Below the pieces are notes generated by a model that worked only from the letters and a program-made list of their open reading frames with translations, searched no databases and had not been told where the DNA came from. A DNA stretch of 38,270 bases. Source: an uncultured bacterium (lineage in GTDB: Bacteria > Nitrospirota > Thermodesulfovibrionia > Thermodesulfovibrionales > Thermodesulfovibrionaceae). The position numbers and the translations under genes were made by a program. Of this stretch, positions 1,348 through 30,344 are shown piece after piece (the stretch's first letter is position 1; the number at the start of each line of letters is the position of its first letter). The DNA lies in contig CALLBR010000023.1 of the NCBI GenBank assembly GCA_937998865.1, positions 1 through 38,270 on the forward strand, given 5' to 3'.

Positions 1348-1404
1348 TCCACAGCCTCCTCCTTTTTAATTTTTTACTTCTTTAAATAATTTCTTTCTTC
1401 TCTA

Positions 1405-1551: not shown

Positions 1552-1564
1552 TATCTAATTTTAA

Positions 1565-1580
1565 TGCAACAAACATACCA
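1565..1580 (-). promoter_or_regulatory. Sigma-54-type (-24/-12) promoter for the TauE/SafE operon
   Basis: On the minus strand the sequence is TGGTAT-gtttg-TTGCA, against the consensus TGGCAC-N5-TTGCA. The invariant GG and GC have the required spacing. The predicted start is near 1554, just before the ATG of the 48-codon ORF. A large dyad is centred 61 bp upstream of the -24 element, the usual place for an activator site, and a sigma-54 activator gene ends just beyond it. Confidence 0.6.
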
Positions 1581-1619
1581 AGCACAGAAGAGTTTAAATA
1601 TAAGACATTAGAGGTAGAT

Positions 1620-1662
1620 TAAAAATATAAAATGCAACACATAGTTGCATTTTATATTTTTA
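1620..1662. promoter_or_regulatory. 19-bp perfect inverted repeat: terminator and/or activator site
   Basis: The arms are TAAAAATATAAAATGCAAC and its exact complement, around the 5-nt loop ACATA. It begins 60 bp after the stop of the sigma-54 activator gene (minus) and could end that transcript, since the outer arm supplies a T-run. Its core TGCAAC-N5-GTTGCA is also centred 61 bp upstream of the -24 element of the next operon, where an enhancer-binding protein would be expected to bind. Both roles are possible. Confidence 0.65.
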
Positions 1663-1721
1663 GATTTAAATTATTCAGAAAATTAATAGAAATTACTGCA
1701 ATAAATTGTTTCAGTTAAAAT

Positions 1722-3014: not shown

Positions 3015-3024
3015 TTGATGTTAA

Positions 3025-3052
3025 AATATAATTTTTGAAATTCTTTTGTCAA
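3025..3052 (-). promoter_or_regulatory. Sigma-70 promoter for the NtrC-type regulator
   Basis: A perfect -35 box, TTGACA (complement of 3047-3052), and the -10 box TATATT (3025-3030) are 16 bp apart on the minus strand. An alternative -10, TATTTT, would give an 18-bp spacer. The ATG is only 10 nt after the -10 and has no Shine-Dalgarno site, so the transcript should be nearly leaderless. The -35 lies just past the 3' end of the AEC permease gene. Confidence 0.6.
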
Positions 3053-3066
3053 TTAAAAATTTTTAA

Positions 3067-3990
3067 TCAGTTTAAAAGAAAAATAAAAAAAACCATGTTA
3101 AAGAAAAAACCGATGGTAGTAATAAAAATCATCTCTACTGAAGTACGCATATCTACTCCAAATACCGCTGCGAATATCATACTCAGTAACATAGAAGGTG
3201 TTCCTGCTTCTATTATGCAGACATTTAAGGGAATTCCTGAAAGACCAAAGATTATTCCATATGTTACAGCAAACAAGGGTGCTATAAATAGTTTTATAAT
3301 TATCGCTGGCAAGGATATAATGAGCTTTTTGGGTGTCACAGCTTTGATAGATAATCCAACAATTAATAGCATAAGAAAGGTCACATGAGATGAGGTTAGA
3401 TCTATAGCTTTAATAAAATTTTGAGGAATGCTTATATTTATTTCTCTTAAAAAAAATCCTACAACCAAACCCCAAATAGGAGGAATTTTAAGGATAGTTA
3501 ATAGAGAATTTTTTACTTTTATCCCTTTTTCTCTCCCAAAATACATACATACTGCCACTGCTAAAGTCCATGTCAAGGGTGTGCTTGCTAAAAAATCATA
3601 GGTAAATGCATAGCTCATGCCTTCGTTGCCATAAAGTTTCGTTAAAATTGGTAAACCAAGATAAAGAACATTTCCGAAGGCAGAACACATAATGAGAGCT
3701 CCTATAACCTTAGATTCAAGTTGATTTCTTAAATTTTTATACACTAACCAGCATACTAAAACTGAGCTTATGATTGTTAGATTTGCCACCAAAGAAACTT
3801 TTAAGTGACTTAAAGTTAAGGGCATGGTATAAGTGGTTTTAAAACATATAAAGGGAATTACATAATAGAAGACAAATTTATTGATTTTGTCACGAAGAAA
3901 ATCAATTTTTTCAGGATTTATTCCTACTACTGTTAAGAGAATTCTTAAGGCTAGTCCAATTACAATGAAAATTGATAATTCAAAAAACAT
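3067..3990 (-). CDS. AEC-family permease (auxin efflux carrier-like)
   Basis: This 307-residue, highly hydrophobic protein has about ten predicted membrane helices in two halves, typical of the AEC (Mem_trans) family of malate, malonate and other anion permeases. Family hallmarks include FVFYYVIPFICFK in helix 2, the GNVLYLGLPI motif near residue 110 and the C-terminal GTPSMLLSMIFA segment. The gene starts 9 bp after the feoB stop with no good ribosome site, so it is probably expressed from the feo transcript by coupling. A functional link to iron is not evident. The substrate is unknown. Confidence 0.8.
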   Translation of the reverse strand: MFFELSIFIVIGLALRILLTVVGINPEKIDFLRDKINKFVFYYVIPFICFKTTYTMPLTLSHLKVSLVANLTIISSVLVCWLVYKNLRNQLESKVIGALIMCSAFGNVLYLGLPILTKLYGNEGMSYAFTYDFLASTPLTWTLAVAVCMYFGREKGIKVKNSLLTILKIPPIWGLVVGFFLREINISIPQNFIKAIDLTSSHVTFLMLLIVGLSIKAVTPKKLIISLPAIIIKLFIAPLFAVTYGIIFGLSGIPLNVCIIEAGTPSMLLSMIFAAVFGVDMRTSVEMIFITTIGFFFNMVFFIFLLN

Positions 3991-6319: not shown

Positions 6320-7624
6320 ATGGATACATTATTATTAAGTAGGCTACAGTTCGCTATCACTGCTGCTTTTCATTTTATTTTTGTACCACTTACGCTCGGA
6401 CTTTCTATTCTCATTGCCTACATGGAGACGAAGTATTTGAGAACTGGAGACAAAGACTACTTAAGGATGGCAAAGTTTTGGGGAAGGCTTTTCATTATTA
6501 ATTTTGCTTTAGGTGTTGTGACAGGCATCACTATGGAGTTTCAATTTGGCATGAACTGGGCTGAATACTCTCGCTATGTAGGTGATATCTTTGGTTCACC
6601 CCTTGCAATTGAGGCAACTGTTGCCTTTTTCCTTGAGTCCACATTTCTTGGTGTTTGGATTTTTGGTTGGAACAGAATCTCCCCTAAGATGCATGCTCTA
6701 TCTATATGGCTTGTTGCCTTAGCAACTAATCTTTCAGCTCTATGGATTTTAATTGCTAATGGTTGGATGCAAAATCCTGTTGGTTATGTAATTAACAATG
6801 GCAGGGCAGAGATGGTTGATTTCTGGGCAGTTGTAACTAATCCTTATGGACTTCTTAAATTTGGTCATACTGTACTTTCTGGATGGGTAGTTGCAGGATT
6901 TTTTGTTCTGGGTGTGTCTGCTTATCATATTTTGAGGAAAAATGAGACTGAATTCTTCAAAAAGTCTTTTAAAATTGGAGTAATATTTGCCCTTGTAAGC
7001 TCTATATTGGTGGCGGGAATTGGTGATTTTCATGCAAAGGAAGTGGCAGCCACTCAGCCAACAAAGCTTGCTGCTATGGAATCCCTTTGGGAAACCACTA
7101 AGGATGCACCTATGTATCTTTTGCTAATACCAGACCAAAAAAATGAGAGAAATTCTGTTGAAGCAATTGGCATACCTTCCATGTTAAGTATTCTTGCAGG
7201 ACAGAAAGAAGTGAGAGGATTAAAAGATTTTCCTCCTTCTGAAAGACCACCCGTTACTCTTACATTTATAAGCTTTCGGCTAATGGTAGGATTAGGTTTC
7301 CTCTTTATTTTGCTCTCTTTATGGGCATTAGTTAAGTCTAAAAGGATTGAAAACTCAACAACTTTACTTAGGATTCTTCTATGGTCAATTCCTCTTCCTT
7401 ATATTGCAGCTCAACTTGGATGGATTGTAGCAGAGGTAGGAAGACAACCTTGGATTGTTTATGGTCTACTTAAAACCTCTGATGCTATATCTAAGAGTGT
7501 TGAACCTTCACAGGTTTTAGCATCTCTTATTGGATTTACTCTCTTTTACGGTGCGTTAGGGGTCATTGATATATATCTTCTTGCAAAGTATGCAAGAAAA
7601 GGTCCTCAACCAAAGGAGGTGTAA
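6320..7624 (+). CDS. cydA: Cytochrome bd ubiquinol/menaquinol oxidase subunit I
   Basis: CydA (434 residues) is the quinol-oxidising, haem-bearing subunit of cytochrome bd, which reduces O2 to water with high affinity. Equivalents of the haem ligands and key residues are visible: H18 (b595), H183 in KFGHTVLSG and M322 in SFRLMVG (b558). E99 and E106 in the proton path are also present, as is GRQPW (374-378). The protein is much shorter than E. coli CydA (about 520) because the C-terminal part of the Q-loop is missing, which is the short Q-loop type common outside Enterobacteria. Menaquinol is the likely donor, given mqnD in the same window. It is followed 2 bp later by cydB. Confidence 0.96.
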   Translation: MDTLLLSRLQFAITAAFHFIFVPLTLGLSILIAYMETKYLRTGDKDYLRMAKFWGRLFIINFALGVVTGITMEFQFGMNWAEYSRYVGDIFGSPLAIEATVAFFLESTFLGVWIFGWNRISPKMHALSIWLVALATNLSALWILIANGWMQNPVGYVINNGRAEMVDFWAVVTNPYGLLKFGHTVLSGWVVAGFFVLGVSAYHILRKNETEFFKKSFKIGVIFALVSSILVAGIGDFHAKEVAATQPTKLAAMESLWETTKDAPMYLLLIPDQKNERNSVEAIGIPSMLSILAGQKEVRGLKDFPPSERPPVTLTFISFRLMVGLGFLFILLSLWALVKSKRIENSTTLLRILLWSIPLPYIAAQLGWIVAEVGRQPWIVYGLLKTSDAISKSVEPSQVLASLIGFTLFYGALGVIDIYLLAKYARKGPQPKEV

Positions 7625-7626
7625 AA

Positions 7627-8649
7627 ATGGAGTTTCAGGTAATTTGGTTTATTTTATGGGGATTACTTTGGGCAGTTTATTTTGCCCTTGATGGTTTTGA
7701 TTTTGGAGCAGGCATTCTTTATCCCTTTATTGCAAAAAATGAGATGGATAAAAGGGCTGTAATTCATGCAATTGGTCCTGTTTGGAATGGCAATGAAGTA
7801 TGGCTAATTACTGCTGGTGGTGCAACTTTTGCTGCTTTCCCAACTACTTATGCTTACATGTTTAGCTATCTTTACACGCCTCTTTTGATTATTCTTTTTG
7901 CCCTTATCTTAAGAGGTGTTGCTGTAGAATTTAGACCAAAAGCTCCTACAGAAGCACAAAAAAAACTTTGGGATGCAGGAATACTTATTGGTAGCTTTAT
8001 CCCAGCTTTGCTTTTTGGTGTTGCCTTCGGAAACATATTTATGGGACTAAGATTTGATGAATCTGGTTACTATGGAACCCTTTTTAGCCTTCTTAATCCT
8101 TATGGACTTCTTGTGGGATTACTTTTCCTTTTTAGTTTTATTGTTCATGGAGGACTATGGGTATCTCTGAGAGTGCCAAATTCCTTAGCTGAAAAAGCTC
8201 TCAGTAGAGCTAAAAAATTTTGGTATCCTCAATTAATCTGTGCAATACTCTTTTTGATTTTGACAGCCTTTTACACAAGACTTTATGATAATTTTATTAA
8301 ATACCCTATATGGTTTTTTGTGCCAACATTAGCTGTGGTCTTTTTATTATTAACTGGTGTCATGATAAGGAAAAATAAAAAAGGAAAGGCATTTATCTGT
8401 TCTGCTTTATTTATCATAACCTTAGTATTCAGTGGAGTGATTGGACTTTATCCAAATCTAATTCCTTCAGCCATTGATCCTAAATACAGCTTTACGATAT
8501 TTAACTCTTCTTCAAGTCCCTATACCTTAAAGATTATGACAATAGTTGTAATAATTTTTGTACCTATTGTTCTTTTTTATCAGGCTTGGACATATAAAAC
8601 ATTTATGTACAAAATTACAGAAAAAGAGCTAAAGGAGGAAAACTATTAA
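7627..8649 (+). CDS. cydB: Cytochrome bd oxidase subunit II
   Basis: CydB (340 residues) is the second membrane subunit of cytochrome bd. The N-terminal YFALDGFDFGAGIL and the segment GPVWNGNEVWLITAGGATFAAFP are diagnostic, and about eight or nine membrane helices follow. It begins 2 bp after cydA, with an AGGAGG-type site inside the cydA 3' end. Its own stop TAA overlaps the proposed AUU start of the Rrf2 gene, making cydA-cydB-rrf2 one coupled unit. Confidence 0.95.
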   Translation: MEFQVIWFILWGLLWAVYFALDGFDFGAGILYPFIAKNEMDKRAVIHAIGPVWNGNEVWLITAGGATFAAFPTTYAYMFSYLYTPLLIILFALILRGVAVEFRPKAPTEAQKKLWDAGILIGSFIPALLFGVAFGNIFMGLRFDESGYYGTLFSLLNPYGLLVGLLFLFSFIVHGGLWVSLRVPNSLAEKALSRAKKFWYPQLICAILFLILTAFYTRLYDNFIKYPIWFFVPTLAVVFLLLTGVMIRKNKKGKAFICSALFIITLVFSGVIGLYPNLIPSAIDPKYSFTIFNSSSSPYTLKIMTIVVIIFVPIVLFYQAWTYKTFMYKITEKELKEENY

Positions 8650-9064
8650 GGGTTTACAAATTAAAAGAGAAACAGACTATGCTATAAGAATAGTTCTTTA
8701 TCTTTCTGGTAAAAAGAACTATTATGCGAAAGCAGAGGAGATTGCTGAGGCGATGAAAATACCTAAATATTTCTTGAGAAAGATAGTTAAAGAGCTTGAA
8801 AAAAATGGTTTGGTTCGACTTAAAAGAGGATTAGGCGGCGGTATAAAATTACTGAAGCTACCAGAGCATATAACTCTCTATGATGTCATAATTATTATTG
8901 AGAAAAAAATAGCCTTAAACAGATGTGTAGTGAACAAAAAAATCTGTGGATTAATTAATCATTGTCCTGTTCATCCTGTGTGGTACAAAATTAGGGAAAA
9001 GTTTGTGGATTCCTTAAAAGAAGTTAATTTTCAAAAACTCACAATGGATGGGGCTGCTCTATAA
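8645..9064 (+). CDS. Rrf2-family Fe-S transcriptional regulator with AUU start
   Basis: This 139-residue Rrf2 protein (IscR/NsrR relatives) has an N-terminal winged helix (IKRETDYAIRIVLYL, then EEIAEAMKIPKYFLRKIVKELEKNG and a GGGIKL wing). Three cysteines (C94, C101, C107) are spaced as in Fe-S cluster members. The first ATG in frame (8753) would delete half the DNA-binding domain. Between the upstream stop at 8630 and 8753 there is no ATG, GTG or TTG. ATT at 8645 fits: GGAGG lies 6 nt upstream, it overlaps the cydB stop (ATTAA), and it yields a normal Rrf2 N-terminus. ATT at 8660 is the alternative. The regulator probably senses O2, NO or Fe-S status and controls cydAB. Confidence 0.85.
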   Translation: MKGLQIKRETDYAIRIVLYLSGKKNYYAKAEEIAEAMKIPKYFLRKIVKELEKNGLVRLKRGLGGGIKLLKLPEHITLYDVIIIIEKKIALNRCVVNKKICGLINHCPVHPVWYKIREKFVDSLKEVNFQKLTMDGAAL

Positions 9065-16724: not shown

Positions 16725-18266
16725 TTATTCGGCACCTATACCAAGATAGGATCTTATTTTTTCAGTCTCAAATTTAACCTCAGCTTCTTTTTCTTTTGTA
16801 GCAAGAGAGACAATAATACCAACAATAAAAGAGCCAAAAAAGGATACAATTCCGGGATTTTTCAAGGGAAAGATTGGTTGAGCATTTTTTAATATATCTA
16901 CCCATACAGTAGGACTTAAGATTATTAAGATAACACTAAGAAATAACCCAGTGTATATACTCCATATTGCTCCTTGGGTAGTAAATTTTTTCCAAAATAT
17001 AGACATGAACAAGGCTGGGAAATTAGCGGATGCAGCTACAGCAAAGGCTAAACCAACCATAAAAGCCACATTCTGACCTTTAAAAATAATTCCGAGTATT
17101 ATTGCCAAAAGACCGAGACAAAGAGTGGATATTTTAGCAGCCTTTACTTCTTGTTTTTCATCTGCTTTCCCTCTTTTTATGACTCCTACATATATATCAT
17201 GAGATACAGCAGAAGCACCAGCAAGAGTCAAACCTGCAACGACTGCTAAAATTGTTGCAAAGGCAACGGCAGCTAAAAATCCTAAGAAAATTTCTCCACC
17301 AAGGGCTTCAGCAAGTAATGGTGCAGCCATGTTCCCACCCTTATCAATTTTACTTATTATCTCATGTCCAACCAAAGCAGCAGCGCCAAATCCAATTATG
17401 AAGGTAAGTATATAAAAGTAACCTATAAATCCAGTTGCATAAAATACCGATTTTCTAGCCTCTTTAGCATCAGGGACAGTATAAAATCTCATTAAAATAT
17501 GAGGAAGGCCTGCGGTTCCGAACATTAAGGCGATCCCAAGGGATATAGCATCGATTGGGTTTTTTATTAGACCACCTGGTTGTACAAATTTATCACCATA
17601 CTTTGTTGTAACGTCTGTAAAAAGTGCAACATAATTAAAGCCAAATTTGTATAGGGTTAAAAATACTAAAATTGTTGCTCCTCCCAGTAGAAGGCAGGCT
17701 TTTATAATCTGAACCCATGTGGTGGCAAGCATTCCGCCAAAAAGAACATAGGCAATCATTAGGCATCCTACAATTATAATTGCTAATTCATAGGGAAGAC
17801 CAAACATCAACTTTATTAAAGAACCTGCACCAACCATCTGAGCAATCAGATAAAGTAGAACAGTTATCAAAGCTCCTGTTGCAGCAGCTGTCCTGATTGG
17901 TCTTTGCTTTAGTCTGTAGGCTACCACATCTGCAAAAGTATATTTACCAAGATTTCTTAAGGGTTCTGCTATTAAAAAAGTAACAATAGGCCAGCCCACT
18001 AACCATCCTACCGCGTAGATAAGCCCATCATAACCTTTTAGGGAAACAAGTCCAGCAATACCAAGAAAACTTGCTGCCGACATATAATCTCCTGCAAGGG
18101 CAAGACCATTTTGTAATCCTGTAATACTTCTGCCAGCAGCATAAAACTCTGCTGTTGTTCTTGTTCTTTTTGCAGCCCAATAAGTTATATAAAGAGTGGC
18201 GCTAACAAATAATAGAAAAAAAACTATACCTGTTAAAGTAGGCTCTCCTAAGACAGTTTCTTTCAT
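16725..18266 (-). CDS. actP: Cation/acetate symporter ActP-like (SSS family)
   Basis: This 513-residue sodium:solute symporter has about 13 predicted helices. It shows the family's [43 protein letters not shown] at residues 30-75 and the [24 protein letters not shown] segment typical of ActP, which takes up acetate and other short acids. It starts on the last base of the DUF485 stop codon (TAATG), a coupling seen in E. coli yjcH-actP, and precedes acs. The acetate assignment rests on family motifs and the acs and DUF485 neighbours. Confidence 0.92.
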
Positions 18267-18562
18267 TATTCACCTCCTAACTTTTCTTTGATTTTTGTTA
18301 CTCTCTCGTCATAAACTTTGTTTGACCATAAAACATAAATACCTGTAAGTACCCAGCTTAGTACAATAACTCCTATACCTATTGGTATACCTACTGTAAC
18401 AGGACCATAAAATTTTTGACTTAGAAATTCTTTGTTATAGGCAATTAACAAAACAAAGCCGAAATAGAGAATTAACTCTAATAAAGTTAAAATAAGAGAA
18501 ATAGAATTTTTGCTTTTTAATAGCTTTTTAAATTCTGATGATTCCAATATCTCTTTTTTCAT
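18266..18562 (-). CDS. DUF485 small membrane protein (YjcH-like)
   Basis: This 98-residue protein has two central hydrophobic helices and charged ends, matching the DUF485/YjcH family that is encoded directly upstream of ActP in many bacteria. The segment [16 protein letters not shown] and the closing [27 protein letters not shown] fit. It has AAGGAGG before its ATG. It is thought to be an accessory or small subunit of the symporter, but its mechanism is not known. It parallels the DUF4212 protein beside the second symporter. Confidence 0.85.
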
Positions 18563-18574
18563 AATGAGTCCTCC

Positions 18575-19267
18575 TTATAATTGATAAGCTTCTTTTTTGG
18601 CAATATCTTGATAACTACAAATATCTGGACAAGCTATATTTAAAAGTTCTCCTAGGGTTAATATTTTTAAATTTGCCAGATAAACGAGCAGCTTCTGGAA
18701 AATTTGAGCAGTTATGTAGGCATCAGAAAGAGCATTATGTAACTCCTTTGCTTCAATACCTAAGGATAGAGCAATATTTTCTAGGGAATTATTTTTCATA
18801 TAATCCGAAGGTAATATTCCTTTCTTGATAAGCCATTTATATATAAGAAGAGTATCTACACTGAAAGGTTCGAAATTATAGTCAATATTGCTTTTGATCT
18901 CTCTTTTTAAAAAACTTAAGTCAAGGTTTACACAATGTCCAACAACTATATTATCCTTTGCAAATGATATAAATTCTTTTAAAATAGGCTTTATTTCAGG
19001 ACATTTTTCCAATTCAGAGGGAGTAATTTCATGAATCATTATGCTTTCTTTTCTGAATTTTTTTGTGGATGGACTTACAGTTCTATAAAAGATATCTCCT
19101 ATTTTTATAGTGCGTCCAATCATTTTTATTGCACCAATGGCTATGATATTATCTCTAAATTCATTCAATCCTGTAAGTTCTGTGTCAACAACAACAAAAT
19201 TTGTATCGATTATCATTTGTTGTGATATTAATTTTTTTTCTTTGCTTTTTCTAAAAAATTTAATCAT
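18575..19267 (-). CDS. DnaQ-like DEDDh 3'-5' exonuclease (operon B copy)
   Basis: This 230-residue RNase T/DnaQ-type exonuclease has motif I VVDTELTGLN (D and E), motif II VGHCVNLDLSFLKREI and motif III LHNALSDAYITAQIF (H and D), so a complete DEDDh active site. The C-terminal 50 residues after the fold are specific to this group. A paralogue with the same motifs and C-terminal extension lies at 25656-26333. The gene sits 6 bp after a DUF294 gene and 12 bp before DUF485. Its operon partners are transport and signalling proteins, so the substrate may be an oligonucleotide or nucleotidylated signal rather than replication errors. That is inference. Confidence 0.85.
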   Translation of the reverse strand: MIKFFRKSKEKKLISQQMIIDTNFVVVDTELTGLNEFRDNIIAIGAIKMIGRTIKIGDIFYRTVSPSTKKFRKESIMIHEITPSELEKCPEIKPILKEFISFAKDNIVVGHCVNLDLSFLKREIKSNIDYNFEPFSVDTLLIYKWLIKKGILPSDYMKNNSLENIALSLGIEAKELHNALSDAYITAQIFQKLLVYLANLKILTLGELLNIACPDICSYQDIAKKEAYQL

Positions 19268-19273
19268 TGCTGC

Positions 19274-21175
19274 TTATATAATCATTAATTTATATCTCTC
19301 AATAAGAATATCCTGGAGTTTAGAGATAAGTTGAAAAGTATCTTTAAGTAATTTTTTTTCAAGATTGCTAAGTGATTCGGGATCAATAAAATTATCAGGT
19401 ACATTTCCTTGTAAAACTTGCTCATATTGATGGCGCATTCTTAAGAGCATTAAAAATTCAAAAGCATAAATTATTTCATCAGCATAATCTCTGACAACAG
19501 TGTGTTTATTCCTTAAGGAATCTATTCTTTCTAATGTGGAGGTTTCTCTAACGCTCTTCTCTAAGCTAAAAAGTCTAATAATATCAACAATAGGCGCTAT
19601 TCCTTTTATTTTTAAATTTAATTTATCCTTGTGTTCTCCGCTCTTTTCAACAACAAATGTTTTAAAAAATCCCAAGGGAGGTTTATTTCTAACGGCAAGA
19701 TTAGCTAAATACCCGAGAAATACTTTTTGATCTTTCACAATATTTAGTAGATAGTCTCTTAGATTTTCCTCTAAGGATAAGTCACCATAAATTCCTCTGA
19801 AATCAAAAAATATATTTGACAGATTTATATTTTCACCCTTTGGAGTGTAAATCCATTGAGAAAAATACTTCTTCCAGGTTTTAAGGGGCTGACACCACTT
19901 GGGATTACTTGCCATAATATCTCCGGGGCAAGGAGGAAACCCGCATTTTAGTAAACTTTCCTTTATGTATTTAGTAAATTCCAAAAAATATTTTTGCACT
20001 GCTTCTTGCTCTGATGGTGAGGGATCAGCATATACTAATGCGTTGTCTTGATCTGTTTTAAAGGTTTGTTCCTTTCTGCCTTCTGAACCTAAAGCAAGCC
20101 AACAATATGGAACTGGAGGTTGACCGAATTCTCTTTCAGCAAATTGGATTATTTTTTTTACAATTCTATCATTAATCTCAGTAATGATTCTTGTAATATT
20201 ACTTGCTTTTGCACCCTGAGAAATTAGATTTCCCACGATGATATTAACTCCCTTTGAGGCATTAATTAAGCCTTCAATTGTTTGTTGTATTTCTAAGTCT
20301 CTTACAATAGTTATGGGAGAAAGTCCCTGAAGCATCATTATGTCGTGATTGGTTATTATTCCATGGATTTTTCCATTTTTTATAACTAGCAGATGGTGTA
20401 TATTGTATTTAAGCATTCTTACCACAGCTTCAAAGCAAAAATCCTTAGCATCGATCTTAATTATGGGATAACTCATTATGTTTTTAACAGGTTCATCTAC
20501 GTTTCTTGCTGAGGCAACAACTTTTTTTCTCAAATCTTTATCTGTAATTATTCCTACAGGAATTCCGTTACTATCCATTATTATTAAGGAGCTTATGGAA
20601 TTTTCACACATAATTTTAGCTGCTTCTTTGATAGAAGTATTCTCTGTAACAGAAATAACCTCTTTTGTAGCAATTTCCTCAACTGGTGTAGTAAAAAGAA
20701 TTTTGTCAACAGTGGAAGTTATAGATCTTTTATATTGTTCTTCTCTGTAACCTTTATCAAGATATATGTTCATAAAAGAACGGAGGAAGAAATCTCTTAC
20801 TTCCGAATATTTATTTATTAGACCTAAAATTATATCCTTAGGGATTAGATAGCATATGGTATCATCAATTGCTACTACGTTTGCTCTTGACTTGTCACCG
20901 CTCATGAGAGAGACAAAACCGAAGCTGTCGCCCTCACTTCTATAGTCTATTACAATATCTTCGTTTTCAACTCTTCTGAAAACTTTTACTCCGCCTTTTT
21001 TTATTACATATAGAAATTCACTGGGAGCACCATCCTGAAGAAGGATATAGGTTCCTTTGGGATAATATTCTAAGGATGTCTTTACTGTAACAGAATTAAT
21101 TACTTCGTCACTTAAAAATTCAAAAGGAGGAACTGATTTAAGAAAATCAATTACATCTTCGATTATTTTAACCAT
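19274..21175 (-). CDS. cNMP-binding/CBS/DUF294 nucleotidyltransferase-like protein (copy 2)
   Basis: This 633-residue cytosolic signalling protein has, in order, a cyclic-nucleotide-binding domain (about 12-130), two CBS motifs (about 160-285) and a GlnD-like nucleotidyltransferase domain (DUF294). The last carries GSEGRKEQ (363-370) and TDQDN (374-378), followed by the DUF294 C-terminal helical domain. The GS and DxD-type residues are intact, so catalysis is possible. CBS pairs often bind adenine nucleotides. It is the first gene of operon B, starting about 4 nt after the predicted sigma-54 start. Similar proteins often neighbour acetate symporters, but their substrate is not established. 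Confidence 0.88.
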   Translation of the reverse strand: MVKIIEDVIDFLKSVPPFEFLSDEVINSVTVKTSLEYYPKGTYILLQDGAPSEFLYVIKKGGVKVFRRVENEDIVIDYRSEGDSFGFVSLMSGDKSRANVVAIDDTICYLIPKDIILGLINKYSEVRDFFLRSFMNIYLDKGYREEQYKRSITSTVDKILFTTPVEEIATKEVISVTENTSIKEAAKIMCENSISSLIIMDSNGIPVGIITDKDLRKKVVASARNVDEPVKNIMSYPIIKIDAKDFCFEAVVRMLKYNIHHLLVIKNGKIHGIITNHDIMMLQGLSPITIVRDLEIQQTIEGLINASKGVNIIVGNLISQGAKASNITRIITEINDRIVKKIIQFAEREFGQPPVPYCWLALGSEGRKEQTFKTDQDNALVYADPSPSEQEAVQKYFLEFTKYIKESLLKCGFPPCPGDIMASNPKWCQPLKTWKKYFSQWIYTPKGENINLSNIFFDFRGIYGDLSLEENLRDYLLNIVKDQKVFLGYLANLAVRNKPPLGFFKTFVVEKSGEHKDKLNLKIKGIAPIVDIIRLFSLEKSVRETSTLERIDSLRNKHTVVRDYADEIIYAFEFLMLLRMRHQYEQVLQGNVPDNFIDPESLSNLEKKLLKDTFQLISKLQDILIERYKLMII

Positions 21176-21189
21176 ACGTTAATAACAAA

Positions 21190-21205
21190 TGCAAAGGTTA
21201 TGCCA
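21190..21205 (-). promoter_or_regulatory. Sigma-54 promoter of the acetate operon (operon B)
   Basis: On the minus strand TGGCAT-aacct-TTGCA matches the -24/-12 consensus at all but one defined base. The predicted start, near 21179, is about 4 nt before the ATG at 21175. A perfect dyad lies 51-67 bp upstream of the -24 element. Confidence 0.75.
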
Positions 21206-21255
21206 AATGTAAATTATTGTTTTTGGAAGGGGATTCTTTTAGAAACATAAAAAAA

Positions 21256-21294
21256 TGTTACTAAAAGTAACAAAAGATGTTTATTTTGGTAACA
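21256..21294. promoter_or_regulatory. Enhancer (UAS) of operon B: dyad plus third half-site
   Basis: TGTTACTAAAAGTAACA (21256-21272) is a perfect dyad with 7-bp arms. A third GTAACA half-site lies at 21289-21294. The dyad is centred 59 bp upstream of the sigma-54 -24 element, a normal position for an NtrC-type activator. A matching arrangement lies before operon A at 26413-26448. Confidence 0.7.
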
Positions 21295-21297
21295 TTA

Positions 21298-23139
21298 TCA
21301 AGAAAAATAGCGAAGGTTATATTTATCAAAAAGTATTTTTTGAAATTCCTCTATTTTTTTAAAAACATCCTTAAGAATATCTTTTTCTGTCTTTGATAAT
21401 TCTGATAAATTTATGTAATTGTCTGGAGGAATTCTGTTTCTAATTTTTTTTGCTTGTGATTTAAGTCTCAAAGACATTAAAAATCGATATCCTTCCTCTA
21501 AGTCTCGACCAAAGTCATTAGTGAAAACAGAGAGTTCTCTTAATTTTCTGATTCTTTCGAAAGTATTAGAATTTCTAATTTCATTATGGAGTGATAAAAC
21601 TCTTACACCTTGAGTAATTGGGAAAATGCCGTATTTTTTAATGTCGATTTCTCCTTTGTGTTTTCCGAATTTTTCAGTTTTTATAGAGCCTAAAAAACCT
21701 AAGGGAGGTCTGAATTTTATTGCTTCGGAAGCTAAAAAAGGCAAAAAGTGTTTGGAAGTTTTAATTCTCTTGAATATGAAATTCCACAGTTCGTCTATTA
21801 ATTGATCTTCTCCATAAACATTTCTAAAATCAAAAAATATACTAATATTAAGAATATTTTCAGGTTTAGGATTTTCCATCCATTTTGTTATTTCATTAAA
21901 CCATTCCAATTTTGTTCTTCTCCAGTAAGGGTTATTTACCATCACATTGCCAGGACATGGTGGGAATCCCACTTCTGTAAGAGAATTGATATATTTTCCA
22001 GAGAATCTCTCAAAATACTCCCTTTTCTCTGAGTTATCTTCAAATATGAAGGCATTATCTTGGTCAGTGGTAAGACTTTGTTCTCTTCTGCCTTCTGAAC
22101 CTATGACCATAATGGAGTATTTACAAGGAGGTGTGCCCAATTCGTTTTCAACAATTTTGGCAACCCTTTTCATGAAATGGTCATTTAATTCAGCTATATA
22201 TTTGCCTACATATTCAGGATCTAAACCAGACATTACACCTTCTACAATACTTTCTTTTACAAGTGAATATAAGTAGGAGAGTTCTTCGGTGTTTTTAGCT
22301 CCATCAATTTCTTTAATGAGAAAAACTATGTTTTTGCTCTCGTGGGAAATAACTGTCCTGTCATCAAGTATTCCCCAAATTGCTCCTGCCTCTTTAATGA
22401 CTAATTTTCTTATTCCATATTTAGCCATTGTAAGCAGTGCATTGAAGAGAGGTTCAGAGGCATCCATAGAGATGATGGGAAAAGTAGCAATATCTTGAGC
22501 TTTTACTTCATAGGGATTTAACTGTTGCGCTAAAATTTTTTTTATTATATCTCTTTCGGTAATTATTCCAATATTACCATCTTTTTCCACAAGACAGAAG
22601 GTAGAGTCGTGGTTTGCCATAGTTTTTGCAGTCTCAATTATATTAGCATCACCTTTAATTAACAGTGGTTCCTTAATTTTAAGATCTTTTATTCTTAAGT
22701 TAAGGAGTCTTTCCATTTGGAAATAATTTTTTACAGAAGGAGCTATATGAACTCTTTTAGCGAGTTGTTTGGTGAAGTATCTAGAAAAATTTTCATTTTT
22801 ATTTATTAAATTTTTAAATTTTTCCTTGCTTATGAGTAAAATTTTTGTATAATCTTTCTCAATTATAGCAGTAGAGGCAGGTGACATTTCACTAACTAAC
22901 GAAACATAACCAAATATATCTCCTTTCTTAAGATGCACTATGAGATGAAAATCTTTTTCAAGTATTACTTCTCCTTCGAGGATTACATATAGGAAATCTA
23001 AGGGAGCATTGCCTTCTTTGAATAAAATTTCATTTTTTTTATAGATTTTTACTTCTGAAGACAGAGCAATATCCTCTATCTCTTCTAAGGAGAGGGTATT
23101 GAAAGGATGAATTTTTTTTAATATCTCTATTAGTTCCAT
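21298..23139 (-). CDS. cNMP-binding/CBS/DUF294 nucleotidyltransferase-like protein (copy 1)
   Basis: This 613-residue paralogue of the next gene has the same order: cyclic-nucleotide-binding domain (about 8-125), two CBS motifs (about 150-265), the nucleotidyltransferase motif GSEGRREQ (347-354) with TDQDN (358-362), and the DUF294 C-terminal domain. The two proteins are clearly related but diverged along their whole length, especially in the sensor half, which suggests different input signals. It is the last gene of operon A and starts 4 bp after the YggT gene. The sigma-54 enhancer of operon B begins a few bases past its stop codon. Confidence 0.88.
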   Translation of the reverse strand: MELIEILKKIHPFNTLSLEEIEDIALSSEVKIYKKNEILFKEGNAPLDFLYVILEGEVILEKDFHLIVHLKKGDIFGYVSLVSEMSPASTAIIEKDYTKILLISKEKFKNLINKNENFSRYFTKQLAKRVHIAPSVKNYFQMERLLNLRIKDLKIKEPLLIKGDANIIETAKTMANHDSTFCLVEKDGNIGIITERDIIKKILAQQLNPYEVKAQDIATFPIISMDASEPLFNALLTMAKYGIRKLVIKEAGAIWGILDDRTVISHESKNIVFLIKEIDGAKNTEELSYLYSLVKESIVEGVMSGLDPEYVGKYIAELNDHFMKRVAKIVENELGTPPCKYSIMVIGSEGRREQSLTTDQDNAFIFEDNSEKREYFERFSGKYINSLTEVGFPPCPGNVMVNNPYWRRTKLEWFNEITKWMENPKPENILNISIFFDFRNVYGEDQLIDELWNFIFKRIKTSKHFLPFLASEAIKFRPPLGFLGSIKTEKFGKHKGEIDIKKYGIFPITQGVRVLSLHNEIRNSNTFERIRKLRELSVFTNDFGRDLEEGYRFLMSLRLKSQAKKIRNRIPPDNYINLSELSKTEKDILKDVFKKIEEFQKILFDKYNLRYFS

Positions 23140-23143
23140 GGCA

Positions 23144-23377
23144 TCACAAATATTTTACTATTAGTATTCTAAGAATAAGTATGAATATAATAATAAAAAT
23201 TGTAGGGGCTATAGGAAAAATTTTTCTCACTAATTTGTAAATAGGTTCCGTTGCCATAAAAAAAATTCCAAAAATAGGATTTTTAGGGTCTTTTATAAAA
23301 ATAGAGAGAATGGCTCGTCCTATGACGAGCCACATGAGGAAGGAAAGGGTATAATTAAGGAAAAGCTTTAAAGTCAT
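23144..23377 (-). CDS. YggT-family small membrane protein
   Basis: This 77-residue protein has two membrane helices flanking a loop that reads AILSIFIKDPKNPIFGIFFMATEPIYKLVRKIFP. It matches the YggT pattern of Arg-Ala-Ile-Leu-Ser, then Asp-Pro-x-Asn-Pro and Thr-Glu-Pro. Its start overlaps the symporter stop by 4 bp (ATGA). YggT proteins are linked to osmotic tolerance and membrane or division functions, but the role inside a symporter operon is not established. Confidence 0.7.
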   Translation of the reverse strand: MTLKLFLNYTLSFLMWLVIGRAILSIFIKDPKNPIFGIFFMATEPIYKLVRKIFPIAPTIFIIIFILILRILIVKYL

Positions 23378-25383
23378 TCTTCCACTCCACCCTTTACAGC
23401 ACCTTTAGGATATCTGATATTATCAACAAATTCCTGCAATTCTTTAGAAGGTGCAGCAGTTATTCTTGATATAATTAAAGCTACGATTACATTGGCTGGC
23501 AAACCAAATATACCTGCAGCTATAGTTTTTATTCCGAACCAGTCTATACCATAAAATCTACTTCCAATTATATAAAATCCTGTTACAAGCAGTCCAACTA
23601 TCATTCCCGACACTGCTCCTGTTTTATTCATTCTCTTGTCCCAAATTCCAAAGACTACAGCAGGGAAGAAAGTGGCTGCAGCTAAGGAGAATGCCCAAGC
23701 AACGAGTTCTACAATTATTGCCAGCTTAAAGCTTGCTACATAAGCACCAATTGCTGCTACTACTAAAAGTAAAGCCTTTCCAATTTTCACTCTTGTGGAA
23801 GGAGAGATATTAGGATTAATAATTTTGTAATAAAGATCATGAGAAATGGCATTGGAAATTGTAATTAAAAGTCCATCAGCTGTGGAAAGAGCAGCTGCAA
23901 GTCCGCCAGCTGCAATTAAACCAGCCACTACATAGGGCAGTCCAGCTATTTCAGGCGTTGCAAGCACTACAGCATCAGCTTGAATTATTATCTCAGAAAA
24001 CTGTATTATTCCATCACCATTCATATCTTTAATAGATATTAATCCTACAGATGACCATTTTGCAACCCATTGAGGAAGGGCACTGAAAGCTTGACCAACA
24101 ATGTTTGTAAGAATTTCACTTCTTGCAAAGGCAGCATAAGCAGGTGCTGTGAAATATAGAAGAAATATGAAAAATAAAGCCCAAGCAGCAGAGCTTCTTG
24201 CTTCCTTTACAGTTGGAGTGGTGTAAAATCTCATCAATACATGGGGAAGGCCTGCTGTTCCCACCATTAGACAGAAGGTAAGGGCAAGGAAATTTATAAT
24301 TCCTTTTGTGTCTGCTGGGGGTGCAATATATGATTTAGGTGGTTTTGACATAGCTTGAGCTTGTTTCATTTGATTAGTCCATTTTTCCTTTGCCTCTTGG
24401 GGTGTTTTTGGATAATCCTTTAGAGCCTTTTCTGTTTTTGCTCTCTCAGGATCATTCTCTTTAAGTTGACTTAATTTTTCTTCCAGTTCAGATTTTCCCT
24501 TTTGCCAACTTTCAGGGAGTGTTTTAATCTTCATACTAATTTCTTCTGCTTTCTTTTTCCATTCTCCTCTTACTTCTATCTCCTTTACATCATTAAGGAG
24601 AGCTTTTTGCTTTGATTCAATTACTTGTAATGCCTGTCCATACATTATTTGAGGAATTGGAACTCCCGTATGCTTGTAGGATATGGCAATAACTGGTATC
24701 ATATAGGCTACTATGAGTATTATATATTGAGCTACTTGTGTCCACGTTACTGCTCTCATGCCTCCAAGAAAGGAGCATACCAATATACCTGCTAAACCAA
24801 GAAAAACTCCAGCCTCAAAAGGAATCCCAATAAATCTACTTGTAATAATTCCCACACCTGTAATTTGAGCTACTAGATAGGCAAAAGAAACTATTATAGC
24901 AGCGATTATTCCTATAAATCTTGGAATTTTTCCTCCGTATCTAGCCTCAAGAAAATCTGGGATAGTAAACTGCCCAAATTTTCTTATATAAGGAGCCACT
25001 AAAACAGCAAGTAAAACGTAACCGCCTGTCCATCCCATTATGAAGGCTAAACCATCGTATCCCTGTAAATACAAAGCACCAGCCATACCGATAAAAGAAG
25101 CAGCGCTCATCCAGTCTGAAGCAGTTGCCATACCATTGAATACAGCAGGTACTTTTCTACCAGCAACATAATATTCAGCTACAACTGAAGTTCTTGATAA
25201 AATACCTATTGCTGCATAAACACCTATTGTTCCGAATAAGAAAGCGTATCCAATATATTTTTGTGGAAGTCCCATATTTTCAGCAATCCAGAGTGAGATA
25301 ATGAAAAGAGCAAAAACACCAGTGTAAACTCCATAAATAAGTCTTAATTTCTTTTTCCATGCAGTCATTGCATCTTGTGCCAT
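23374..25383 (-). CDS. SSS-family sodium/solute symporter, VC_2705-type large subunit
   Basis: This 669-residue symporter has the family's core (SVVAEYYVAGRKVPAVFNGMATASDWMSAASFIGMAG near residues 65-102, GTAGLPHVLMRFYTTP near 375-390 and AAGGLAAALSTADGLL near 490-505). Two additions set it apart from ActP. A charged, helix-forming loop occupies about 251-350, and a full EF-hand-type loop, DMNGDGIIQFSE, lies at 453-464 between membrane segments. Its pairing with a DUF4212 gene by a 1-bp overlap marks the two-component VC_2705 group. The substrate is probably acetate or another small organic anion, inferred from the neighbouring acs operon and related motifs. Confidence 0.9.
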   Translation of the reverse strand: MAQDAMTAWKKKLRLIYGVYTGVFALFIISLWIAENMGLPQKYIGYAFLFGTIGVYAAIGILSRTSVVAEYYVAGRKVPAVFNGMATASDWMSAASFIGMAGALYLQGYDGLAFIMGWTGGYVLLAVLVAPYIRKFGQFTIPDFLEARYGGKIPRFIGIIAAIIVSFAYLVAQITGVGIITSRFIGIPFEAGVFLGLAGILVCSFLGGMRAVTWTQVAQYIILIVAYMIPVIAISYKHTGVPIPQIMYGQALQVIESKQKALLNDVKEIEVRGEWKKKAEEISMKIKTLPESWQKGKSELEEKLSQLKENDPERAKTEKALKDYPKTPQEAKEKWTNQMKQAQAMSKPPKSYIAPPADTKGIINFLALTFCLMVGTAGLPHVLMRFYTTPTVKEARSSAAWALFFIFLLYFTAPAYAAFARSEILTNIVGQAFSALPQWVAKWSSVGLISIKDMNGDGIIQFSEIIIQADAVVLATPEIAGLPYVVAGLIAAGGLAAALSTADGLLITISNAISHDLYYKIINPNISPSTRVKIGKALLLVVAAIGAYVASFKLAIIVELVAWAFSLAAATFFPAVVFGIWDKRMNKTGAVSGMIVGLLVTGFYIIGSRFYGIDWFGIKTIAAGIFGLPANVIVALIISRITAAPSKELQEFVDNIRYPKGAVKGGVEE

Positions 25384-25643
25384 TATTCTTCCTCCTGTAA
25401 TCCATATTTTTTGTCTAATTCATTTGTTTTTTTAGAATAAAGGACATTAAGAATCACAAAAACTATTAGAGAACCTTGTGCTCCCATGTAATAGCCCAGG
25501 GGAAACCCAAAAATTGTAATTTCGTTAAGATATGAAGCCACAATTGCTGCACCGTAAGAAATTATGAACCAAATTAGTAAAATCAGTAGCATGAGAGTTT
25601 TGTTTTCCCTCCAATAATTACTTAGTACGTCACTTTTAATCAT
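25383..25643 (-). CDS. DUF4212 symporter small subunit
   Basis: This 86-residue protein has two helices and the DUF4212 signature: YWRENKTLMLLILLIWFIISYG, then FGFPLGYYMGAQGSLIVFVILN and the C-terminal DKKYGLQEE. Members are the small subunit of the sodium/solute symporter encoded next to them. It has AAAGGAGG before its ATG, and its stop overlaps the symporter start (TAATG). It is the functional parallel of DUF485 in operon B. Confidence 0.9.
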   Translation of the reverse strand: MIKSDVLSNYWRENKTLMLLILLIWFIISYGAAIVASYLNEITIFGFPLGYYMGAQGSLIVFVILNVLYSKKTNELDKKYGLQEEE

Positions 25644-25655
25644 AAAACACCTCCT

Positions 25656-26333
25656 TTAGAATTGATAGTTTTTTTCATATTGACCAAACATGTATCCTGA
25701 TATATTTGGTCTGCCAATTTTTTTTATAAAATCAAACCATGAAAGCTGTACACTTTGAATAAGGGCTATCTCCCTTTGAAAAATCTGTGCAGTAATAAAA
25801 GCATCATAAAGAGCATCATGAAGAGTTTCAACTTTAATGTCAAAAGCTTCTGCTATTTGGGGTAAAGATTTGGCACCTTTGAATTTATGAGAAATTAAAC
25901 CTCTCTCAATCAACCAATTAAAAATAATATATGTATCAATTGCTACTGGCTCAAATTTGATTTTTAAGTTGTTTTTTATCTCTCTCTTTAAGAATTTAAG
26001 ATCAATCTCTAAGAAATGACCTACTATAGGTCTATCCTTTATAAAATTAACAAATTCCATTATAATAGGCTTTATTTCAGGACACTTCTCCAATTCCGAG
26101 TAGGTTAATTCATGGATTAGCACACTTTCCCGCTTTAGTTTACCCTGAGGATTTAAAATTCTATAAAAGATATCACCTAATGATATTCTTCTTTCTTTCA
26201 TAAGTATTGCACCAATGGAGATAATATGGTCTTCCTTTTCATTCAAACCTGTAAGTTCAGTATCAAGAACAACAAATTCTCTTTTCTGAAAAATTGTGGA
26301 TTCTATTCTTTTTTTTCTCAGGAAATTAAACAT
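25656..26333 (-). CDS. DnaQ-like DEDDh 3'-5' exonuclease (operon A copy)
   Basis: This 225-residue exonuclease has motif I VVLDTELTGLN, motif II VGHFLEIDLKFLKREI and motif III LHDALYDAFITAQIF, all catalytic residues present. It is a paralogue of the exonuclease in operon B, which also begins with a short basic segment (here MFNFLRKKR, there MIKFFRKSK). The start at 26333 is chosen over an in-frame ATG at 26357. The earlier ATG lies inside the predicted -24 element, and 26333 gives the same N-terminus as the paralogue. It is the first gene of operon A, about 3 nt after the predicted sigma-54 start. Its substrate is unknown; a signalling role is inferred from its neighbours. Confidence 0.83.
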   Translation of the reverse strand: MFNFLRKKRIESTIFQKREFVVLDTELTGLNEKEDHIISIGAILMKERRISLGDIFYRILNPQGKLKRESVLIHELTYSELEKCPEIKPIIMEFVNFIKDRPIVGHFLEIDLKFLKREIKNNLKIKFEPVAIDTYIIFNWLIERGLISHKFKGAKSLPQIAEAFDIKVETLHDALYDAFITAQIFQREIALIQSVQLSWFDFIKKIGRPNISGYMFGQYEKNYQF

Positions 26334-26345
26334 GAAGATTTTACA

Positions 26346-26361
26346 AACAATTCGCATGCCA
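26346..26361 (-). promoter_or_regulatory. Sigma-54-type promoter of operon A
   Basis: On the minus strand the sequence is TGGCAT-gcgaa-TTGTT. The -24 half is identical to that of operon B. The -12 half has GT in place of GC, so it may be weak or tightly controlled. The ATG at 26333 is 14 nt after the T of that pair, as at the other two sigma-54 promoters (15 and 16 nt). Confidence 0.55.
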
Positions 26362-26648: not shown

Positions 26649-27914
26649 TTAAACCTTTAATCCAATATCCTTTCTGTAGTGCATTCCTTCAAATTTTATG
26701 AATTCAATAGCACCATAGGCTTTCTGTCTCGCCTCCTTTAGATCTTTACCTAAGGCTGTTACTCCTAAGACCCTTCCGCCATTTGTTACGATTTTACCCT
26801 TATCATCAAACTTAGTGCCGGCATGAAAAATTGTAACATCTTTTAAATTTTTTAAAAATTCGAGTCCTTCTATGTTAAAGCCTTTTTTATATTTACCTGG
26901 ATATCCCTGAGAGGCTAAAATAACGCATAAAGAAGCATCAACTTTCCATTTAATATCTACTTTATTTAGCTTTCCATTAGCAATCCCCATAAACACATCC
27001 AATAAATCGGTCTCTAGTCTCGGTAAAATAACCTGAGTTTCAGGATCTCCGAACCGACAATTGAACTCTAATACATAAGGTTTATTATCCACAATCATTA
27101 ATCCAGCATAGAGAATTCCTTTATAAACAATTCCCTCTTGTTTTAATCCCTTAATTGTGGGTTTTATGATAGTTTCCAAGATAATTTTTTCTAGCTCAGG
27201 AGTTATGACGGGATTTGGACTATATGTTCCCATCCCACCTGTGTTTGGACCTTCATCATTATCAAGAAGTCTTTTATGATCCTTAGATGTTACCATAGGT
27301 AATATATTTTTGCCATCTGTGAAGATTAAGTATGAGGCTTCAACACCTTCTAAATATTCTTCAATAACAACTTTGTCACCAGCAGGACCGAAAATTTTAT
27401 CTTTCATAATTAGCTTCAAAGCATCTAAGGCTTCTTCATAACTTTTGCATACAAACACTCCCTTACCAGCTGCAAGTCCATCAGCCTTGACAACTATAGG
27501 AGTGCCTTTAAGTCTAATGTAATCTTCTGCATGAGTATAAGAGGTGAAAACCTTATATTCAGCAGTAGGAATTTTATGTCTTTTCATAAATTCTTTTGCA
27601 AATACCTTGCTACTTTCAAGCTGAGCTGCTGCTTTTGTGGGTCCTATAATCTTTCTTCCTTCTTTTTGAAAAAGATCTACTATTCCTTTTGCAAGAGGGT
27701 CTTCAGGACCTACAACTGTTAAATCTATCCATTCATACTTTACAAAATCTAAAAGATTTGAGAAGTCTCTACTTTCTACTTCTAAGCATTCAGCAATTTC
27801 AGCAATCCCAGCATTTCCCGGAACACAGTAAATTTTATCCACTACCCTTGATTGGGCAAGTTTCCAAACTATTGCGTGTTCTCTTCCACCAGAGCCAATT
27901 ACAAGAACTTTCAT
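26649..27914 (-). CDS. purD: Phosphoribosylamine-glycine ligase
   Basis: PurD (421 residues, normal length) makes glycinamide ribonucleotide from phosphoribosylamine, glycine and ATP, the second step of purine synthesis. The N-terminal [22 protein letters not shown], the ATP-grasp segment [18 protein letters not shown], the conserved [22 protein letters not shown] and [19 protein letters not shown] are all present. It overlaps the preceding globin-PsiE gene by 4 bp (ATGA), and no other early purine genes are nearby. Confidence 0.97.
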
Positions 27915-28807
27915 CTTCTGTCCTCCTCTGTCTTTTTAACTAACCAATAAATGAGACCTATTACAAGAACTGAAATCACCAATGCTCCTATAAATTCAAG
28001 GCTATCGTGTTTCAAAGTAGCAATCATAACTTCTCTTATTGTTGTTACAAGAGCAACTCCTATAAAAACACTTATTTTAAATTTACCACCTCTTAAATGG
28101 GCTATTTCTGTGTTTATTAATTCAAGCATTACCCATAGAATTAGAACTGAGCCTAAAGCAGTGATTATTGTCTGTTCTAATTTGCCAGTAAATATTTCGT
28201 ATATATCTCTTCCGCATAGAAAAATTACTGCTCCTGTTAGCAATATCAATCCTGAAATTAAAAAAACACTTGTAATTTGAGAGAATACTTCACCAAATCT
28301 AACTATTTTACCTTTAACTTTATAAACTGGCGAATATCCTCTTGCTTCTTCCTCCAAATAGGCAGATAGAATAATATCTAGATTTATATCGAGTATTTTA
28401 TTGATGGATATCAAGTAATTGTCTTTTTCTTCCTCCAGATCTGGTTCTTCACACACTAAACCAGCGGTTGTATTTCTAACAATATTTATAGCTCTAATCA
28501 AAAAATGAGGTTCAACACCGATTTTTTCATGTTTTTGCCCTATTTGGATAAGTTTGTCATAATAGAAATTATCATATTTTCCTGAGAAGAGATTAATAAA
28601 CCAAACTTTGATAACATTTTTTACATGCTTCATTAAAGACTCACTTCTAAAGACCTTTTTAGCAGACTCTGTAGCATTAATCCATTGAAAAATAGCATCC
28701 ATAACTCTATCAGCCCTTTTTTCCATTACTTCTTTAAGGGCTAGGAGCCTTTTTTCATCTTCTTTCGTAAAATAATAGTGGGCTTTAATTTCTTTAAATG
28801 GTCTCAT
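27911..28807 (-). CDS. Globin-coupled (protoglobin-like) sensor fused to PsiE membrane domain
   Basis: This 298-residue, two-part protein has residues about 1-155 resembling a sensor globin. They include an all-helical segment with WFINLFSGKYDNFYYDKL followed by IGQKHEKIGVEP, the globin-sensor signature in which H93 would be the proximal haem ligand. Residues about 175-290 form four hydrophobic helices matching the PsiE (phosphate-starvation-inducible) family, with IFLCGRDIYEIF, ILWVMLELINTEIAHLRGGKF and TTIREVMIATL. A cytosolic gas or redox sensor joined to a membrane module is the natural reading. It lies between purH (1-bp gap) and purD (4-bp overlap), so it is made with purine enzymes. 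The function is unknown and haem binding is unproven. Confidence 0.72.
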   Translation of the reverse strand: MRPFKEIKAHYYFTKEDEKRLLALKEVMEKRADRVMDAIFQWINATESAKKVFRSESLMKHVKNVIKVWFINLFSGKYDNFYYDKLIQIGQKHEKIGVEPHFLIRAINIVRNTTAGLVCEEPDLEEEKDNYLISINKILDINLDIILSAYLEEEARGYSPVYKVKGKIVRFGEVFSQITSVFLISGLILLTGAVIFLCGRDIYEIFTGKLEQTIITALGSVLILWVMLELINTEIAHLRGGKFKISVFIGVALVTTIREVMIATLKHDSLEFIGALVISVLVIGLIYWLVKKTEEDRR

Positions 28808-28808
28808 C

Positions 28809-30344
28809 TTAGTGCCTAAAATGCCTTATTCCTGTTAATACCATTGCTATATTATACTGATTTGCAGCATCAATTACTTCCTGATCACGAATAGAACCGC
28901 CGGGCTGAATTATGGCAGTCACTCCATTTTGTGCAAAAACATCAATATTGTCTCTGAAAGGGAAAAATCCATCAGAAGCCACAACACAACCTTTAAGGGG
29001 GCTTAAAGCATGCAGAGCTCCAATTTTAGATGAAAATACTCTGCTTGTCTGTCCTATTCCAAGACCTAAAGTGCGATCTTCTTTGGCATAAACTATAGCA
29101 TTTGATTTCACATGTTTGCAAACTTTCCAAGCAAATCTCAGAGCTTTCCATTCTTCCTCTGTTGGCTTTCTTTTAGTTACTATCTTAGCTTGAGCAAACT
29201 CATCATCCACCACATCCCAGTTTTGAACTATAAACCCACCAAGTATTCTTTTTAGGTCAAAGCCAGAGGGTATTATTTTTTCTTTTAATGCTGGGAATTT
29301 GATTATTCTTAGATTTTTCTTTGAAGTAAAAACATCTAAAGCTGACTTTTCAAAATCTGGTGCAATTATTACTTCATAGAAAGTTGAAATTATCTCTTCA
29401 GCTGTTTTCTCATCCAAAGCTCTATTAAAGGCAACTATTCCTCCGAAAGCACTTACTGGATCACACTCAAAGGCTTTTTTATAAGCATCATAAAGACTGT
29501 CAGCAATAGCAACACCGCAAGGATTGTTATGTTTTACTATTACGCATACAGGCTCATTAAACTCTGCAGCTAAAAGCACTGCTGAATGAGTATCCAGATA
29601 GTTATTGAAAGACATTTCTTTTCCTTGTAAAACTTCTGCCTCAATTAAGGAGGGTTTTTCATCCAATGCATAAAGAGCCGCCTTTTGATGAGGATTTTCA
29701 CCGTACCTAAGAGTTTCTACCATTTTTAGCTGTATAATCCAGTCTTTCTTGAATTCTAAAGTTTGGGTTAATTTTGTAAAATAATCTGCTATCATCGCAT
29801 CATATCTTGCTGTGTGAGAGAAAACTTTTTTTGCAAGTTCAAACCTTTTTTCCAGTGAAACATTTCCCTTTTTAATGTCTTCTAAGATGGAAGAGTAATC
29901 ATCAGGATCCACAATTACTAATACATCTTTATAATTTTTAGCAGCTGCTCTAAGCATGGTAGGTCCACCAATATCAATATTTTCAATGGCTTCCTCAAGA
30001 GTTACTCCTTCTTTTTTGATTGTTGCCTCAAAGGGATAAAGATTAACCACTACCATGTCAATTGGCTTAATGCCAAGATTTTCCATGGCTTCCAAGTCTT
30101 CTTTTTTGTCTCTTCTTGCCAGTATTCCTCCGTGTATGAGTGGATGAAGAGTTTTTACCCTTCCATCCATTATCTCTGGAAAACCTGTATAGTGAGAAAC
30201 ATCTATCACAGGTATACCAGATTCTCTTAATAATTTTGCAGTGCCACCTGTTGAAAGAATTTCCACCCCAAGCATGCTTAGGCTTTTTGCAAATTCTGAA
30301 ATTCCTCTTTTATCCCACACGCTAATTAATGCTCTCTTTATCAC
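28809..30344 (-). CDS. purH: AICAR transformylase / IMP cyclohydrolase
   Basis: This 511-residue bifunctional enzyme carries out the last two steps to IMP. The N-terminal cyclohydrolase domain of the MGS fold has [15 protein letters not shown] and [14 protein letters not shown] with [15 protein letters not shown]. The transformylase domain has [25 protein letters not shown] and [13 protein letters not shown], ending with [15 protein letters not shown] and TGIRHFRH. The start codon is GTG, overlapping the carB stop (GTGA), with AAGGAGG upstream. It therefore belongs to the same coupled transcript as the pyrimidine genes. Confidence 0.97.

Follow-up and report, generated by a model that had tools for sequence, protein, structure and literature searches.

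A conserved globin–PsiE fusion in Nitrospirota is a candidate membrane-anchored gas sensor

The window analysed here, a 38,270-nucleotide stretch from an uncultured member of the Thermodesulfovibrionaceae (assembly GCA_937998865.1, contig CALLBR010000023.1, positions 1 to 38,270), encodes a protein in which a globin is joined to a PsiE membrane domain, from a gene that lies between purH and purD (Table 1). The ATG of this gene is 1 bp past the end of purH, and purD begins within the last 4 bp of the fusion, which bears out the tight coupling to both genes described in the first-pass annotation. Further upstream we identified carB, carA, pyrC, pyrB and pyrR from a reading of the open reading frames (ORFs). 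Promoter-like matches occur within the operon and were given no weight. Comparison of the fusion with its 97% relative gave a dN/dS of about 0.07 for each half, which places both halves under purifying selection. The fusion is real: chance is excluded because these dN/dS values are accompanied by HMM scores far above the cut-off and by full-length recurrence in 58 of 296 genomes. Its presence in 58 genomes also ruled out a sequencing or assembly artefact.

Table 1. Positions of the fusion gene, its neighbours and selected residues in the window
Feature	Position	Strand	Basis
Globin–PsiE fusion gene, 298 aa	27911..28807	-	ORF with ATG start; Pfam; 58 full-length relatives
purH, upstream neighbour, 1 bp gap	28809..30344	-	ORF; NCBIfam equivalog
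purD, downstream neighbour, 4 bp overlap	26649..27914	-	ORF; NCBIfam equivalog
Protoglobin / sensor globin domain, residues 5-154	28346..28795	-	PF11563; 2w31 sequence, profile and fold matches
Phe40 at B10; Tyr there in O2-sensing globin-coupled sensors	28688..28690	-	Alignment
Ile66 at E11; His66 in Geobacter sensor	28610..28612	-	Alignment
His93, predicted proximal haem ligand (F8)	28529..28531	-	Aligns with 2w31 His93 and AfGcHK His99; invariant in 52/52
His101, second invariant His, start of G helix	28505..28507	-	Invariant in 52/52
PsiE four-helix membrane domain, residues 177-294	27926..28279	-	PF06146; hydropathy; model helices
Glu229, sole residue invariant across fused and standalone PsiE	28121..28123	-	Alignment
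Arg258, third membrane helix, >90% conserved in fused and standalone PsiE	28034..28036	-	Alignment

Elsewhere in the window, two adjacent, related cassettes at 16725-26357 contain symporter, DUF4212, exonuclease-like and cNMP-CBS-DUF294 genes. The sodium:solute symporter at 23374-25383 (minus strand, 669 aa) carries an extra charged insert and DMNGDGIIQFSE, resembling an EF-hand loop, and its paralogue at 16725-18266 has neither the insert nor DMNGDGIIQFSE. At 6320-9064, this member of a sulfate-reducing genus carries cytochrome bd oxidase genes and, after them, a short ORF for an Rrf2-family regulator; the regulator ORF encodes 103 aa, and its match starts at position 34 of the Rrf2 profile.

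The N-terminal half of the fusion matched the Protoglobin family (PF11563, residues 5-154, E = 1.1e-26, 94.2 bits against a cut-off of 25), with the IGxxHxxIGxxP signature present as IGQKHEKIGVEP at residues 89-100. Among solved structures, the nearest is that of the globin domain of a globin-coupled sensor from Geobacter sulfurreducens (GsGCS; 2w31), which was matched at E = 3e-27 by the single sequence and at E = 2e-50 over positions 1-160 by the family profile, AfGcHK following well behind. AlphaFold modelled the globin, free of haem, as a block with pLDDT of 80-95, and Foldseek placed the model on 2w31 at a TM of 0.92 over the target; AfGcHK and HemAT also superposed. Tyr11, Trp69, Gly76, Gly90, His93, His101, Asp140, Tyr150 and Glu153 were invariant in an alignment of 52 sequences, and across both halves the family-invariant residues include His93, His101, Trp69, Glu229, Glu234 and Arg258. 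The family match, the signature and the alignment of His93 uphold the N-terminal globin-sensor domain with an H93 signature that the first-pass annotation had claimed. The checks that it had proposed, structure prediction with comparison to globin-coupled sensors and HMM searches against the globin and PsiE families, returned a sensor-globin fold (the 2w31 superposition above) and matches to both families far above the cut-offs.

The C-terminal half matched PsiE (PF06146, residues 177-294, E = 9.5e-22, 77.9 bits against a cut-off of 23.9). Hydropathy revealed four hydrophobic stretches, centred near residues 180-192, 221-224, 253-256 and 278-284, with none before residue 160. Together with the models, these stretches and the PF06146 match confirm four PsiE-like membrane helices, as had been proposed from the first reading. 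In the AlphaFold model, helices 122-158 and 160-207 connect the globin to the first membrane helix; the PsiE bundle was predicted with moderate confidence (pLDDT roughly 60-80), and its fold had no significant match among PDB or viral models. The PsiE part is the more conserved of the two, with a dN to the relative at locus L001 of 0.009 versus 0.016 for the globin part. The alignments and models show a predicted sensor-globin domain with a proximal haem His, followed by near-continuous helices that run into a four-helix PsiE bundle.

With its N-terminal protoglobin-like domain, F8 His and C-terminal non-globin part, the protein has the make-up of a globin-coupled sensor, and it is very probably a membrane-anchored haem sensor. 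It shares His93 and the end signature DINLDI...EEE with GsGCS, its best sequence and fold match (residues 3-158), and the numbering of the two coincides. The distal sides differ: GsGCS has a second haem ligand, His66(E11), whereas the window protein has Ile66 and also a Phe at B10. Full-length GsGCS presumably carries a C-terminal membrane domain and may therefore have the same layout as the fusion. HemAT, AfGcHK, EcDosC/EcGReg and BpeGReg are likewise built from an N-terminal Protoglobin-family domain with a proximal His and a C-terminal output part, but their output is a chemoreceptor, kinase or cyclase, whereas that of the fusion would be the PsiE bundle. The distal Tyr of other globin-coupled sensors is missing from the window protein. 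PsiE proteins from E. coli and from a heat-resistance island (PMC7010813) have four membrane helices, and the Glu and Arg, in common with the fusion; standalone PsiE has no globin, and there are no phosphate genes near the fusion locus. Globin-coupled sensors are already known, and we regard the PsiE output as a new variant whose layout may be common to the Geobacter sensor.

Of the 296 Nitrospirota genomes sampled, 58 contained the full-length fusion, with the match extending over both domains; the genome scan used one close query. The first-pass annotation had found the domain pairing unusual and had suggested searching other genomes for the fusion and its neighbours. That search, which extended to the neighbours of 51 loci, instead revealed a family conserved across much of Nitrospirota; the specific proximity of the globin half to the Geobacter sensor also speaks against an unusual pairing. 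No named NCBI family matched the fusion at 0.001, and we found no account of a globin–PsiE protein in the literature searched, which covered a minority of journals. Viral or plasmid spread was rejected, as viral contigs held no relative and plasmid records never held both domains together. In a tree of 60 sequences, most families formed clusters of their own, and only 4 changes of purine context were required.

Alignment to solved structures placed B10 at position 40, E7 at position 62 and E11 at position 66. The window protein has Phe, Val and Ile at these positions, all apolar, and so has neither the B10 Tyr of the O2-sensing subgroup nor the E11 His of the bis-His GsGCS. The distal positions differ clade by clade around a fixed proximal His: His and Gln are found in most members of family f3, Ser or Asn together with Gln in f23, Glu or His with His at E11 in f8/f11, and Tyr at B10 with His at E7 in f26. 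Sister species within Thermodesulfovibrio mostly have Tyr, Val and Val/Ile at B10, E7 and E11, and Phe occupies B10 in the window protein and its 97% relative. The Thermodesulfovibrio genomes G000 (that of the window) and G205 combine Phe at B10 with the absence of NrfA, and the eight others shown have NrfA and Tyr; this correlation amounts to one evolutionary event and is a lead only.

These pockets bear on whether the globin might bind O2 and report oxygen exposure to the membrane domain of an anaerobe, which we consider a doubtful but credible alternative. NO and CO binding by haem needs no distal stabilising donor. In EcGReg, O2 is stabilised by distal Tyr43 (PMC5549716), and those globin-coupled sensors of c-di-GMP signalling that have been characterised sense O2 (PMC8846402). 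Most Thermodesulfovibrio orthologues and f26 have Tyr at B10, f26 with the additional His at E7, and the cytochrome bd oxidase encoded in the window indicates that the organism meets O2. However, the window protein presents Phe at B10 and no polar residue on its distal side, His, Ser, Asn, Asp or Glu occupies B10 in most other clades, and the f23 fusions neighbour genes for enzymes of NO and nitrite. Because the O2-stabilising distal Tyr is missing in most members, most of the family, including the window protein, appears to be built unlike standard O2 sensors.

The neighbourhood of the f23 fusions includes norCB, CBS-HPP and nrfHA genes. Genes for CBS and HPP (a membrane protein) stand beside the fusion in 13 of 13 f23 loci. 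Eight f23 genomes have a NorB, and in seven of these it is encoded on the same contig as the fusion at a distance of less than 10 kb, in three of them at less than 1 kb. The f23 NorB matched 3o0r at 4e-114; NrfH, confirmed by TIGR03153, and NrfA, also confirmed, are encoded in the vicinity of f23 and f10 fusions, with nrfHA adjoining the fusion in one f10 genome (L050). The NO-linked loci come mostly from one family and are not independent of each other; a binomial P calculated for the norB linkage disregards this kinship and was not taken as a probability. Since most members have no O2-stabilising Tyr and one family sits beside NO and nitrite reductase genes, NO would be the likeliest ligand in the family, an assignment that we hold with slightly less than even confidence. 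This link to NO is drawn from relatives that share about 50% identity, because neither NorB nor NrfA was found in the window's genome and its own fusion lies in a purine operon. The same genome encodes a prismane-family protein whose length matches that usual for the NO-linked hybrid cluster protein.

The respiratory N-oxide enzymes beside f23 fusions would also suit a redox switch, or a membrane enzyme that uses its haem to act on NO or nitrite, with PsiE as a mere anchor or an electron route. His at E11 in seven other family members, as in the bis-His Geobacter globin, would fit this reading, but E11 provides no second haem ligand in the window protein, and the fusion carries no reductase domain. 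Moreover, the higher conservation of PsiE than of the globin, and the Glu and Arg that never vary within its helices, exceed what an anchor needs. We consider such a function very unlikely.

The operon itself raises the question of a direct purine role, in which the fusion would tether PurH and PurD to the membrane, regulate them or act as a purine-linked transporter. Among the 51 loci, purD was adjacent or one gene away in 28 and purH adjacent in 26; the order was purH-fusion-purD in 25, fusion-purD in two and fusion-purH-purD in one. The first arrangement is conserved in several Thermodesulfovibrionales families and, with the translational coupling to purH and purD, favours such a role. Against it, pur genes are missing from the surroundings of almost half of the relatives, and in G142 and G170 purH lies directly beside purD with nothing between, leaving the pur operon intact without the fusion; a direct role is as improbable as the redox alternative. 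The idea from the first pass, that nucleotide synthesis and production of the protein keep pace, suits the Thermodesulfovibrio operon. It does not extend to the family as a general property, because many relatives lie elsewhere, one family sits beside NO and nitrite reductase genes, and the G142 and G170 operons do without the fusion. We read the predicted expression of the Thermodesulfovibrio fusion with purH and purD as growth co-expression rather than control of purine enzymes. Between purH and purD in G113 (locus L120, C83:3900-7400) lies an in-frame version in which residues 1-23 are joined to residues 176-294; this globin-less version is either a natural deletion or an assembly artefact. 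That version and the strongly variable distal pocket would fit a globin half that had lost haem and become a protein-interaction module, like Bacillus RsbR, but this is extremely improbable given the proximal His in 52 of 52 sequences, the purifying selection on both halves and the fact that RsbR is missing exactly that His (PMC4476040).

For the PsiE half, standalone relatives offer a candidate partner. On contig 4 of the window's genome (L078), a standalone PsiE gene (375-758) lies directly upstream of a P-type ATPase gene (781-3462). This ATPase is of the Ca2+-pump type, its best solved relatives being lmo0841, a Listeria pump, and human ATP2C1. A Ca2+-type P-type ATPase adjoins six of eight close standalone PsiE loci, in both gene orders; besides the window's genome, five others show this pairing. 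In five f26 loci a P-type ATPase gene lies close to the fusion, separated from it by a UspA gene on the opposite strand, and the window's fusion has no pump gene adjacent. The proteins of a heat-resistance island include PsiE and the transporter KefB (PMC7010813). Because close standalone PsiE genes adjoin the Ca2+-type ATPase, the likeliest task of PsiE would be to modulate a membrane cation transporter, a tentative and on balance improbable assignment.

The best explanation overall is a membrane-anchored globin-coupled sensor, with NO as its likeliest ligand, whose PsiE domain would adjust ion transport, a reading that we believe about as much as we doubt. In such a sensor, haem at His93 would bind a diatomic gas, and binding would shift the F and G/H helices. 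Passing along the H helix, the shift would reach the first membrane helix; the PsiE bundle would then change state and alter ion transport across the membrane. A broader version, in which PsiE is a general partner of cation pumps and the fusion its NO-gated form, tying ion transport to nitrosative stress, is unlikely.

PsiE is a widespread membrane family of unsettled function, and its fusion to a putative sensor with a colour change as readout gives a direct handle on it. The neighbourhoods point to NO as a candidate signal and to a Ca2+-type pump as a candidate target. A distal pocket that varies between clades, combined with a fixed proximal His and membrane core, provides a natural series on how globins choose their gas. 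If true, the reading of PsiE as a gas-controlled pump partner would be the first role assigned to this family.
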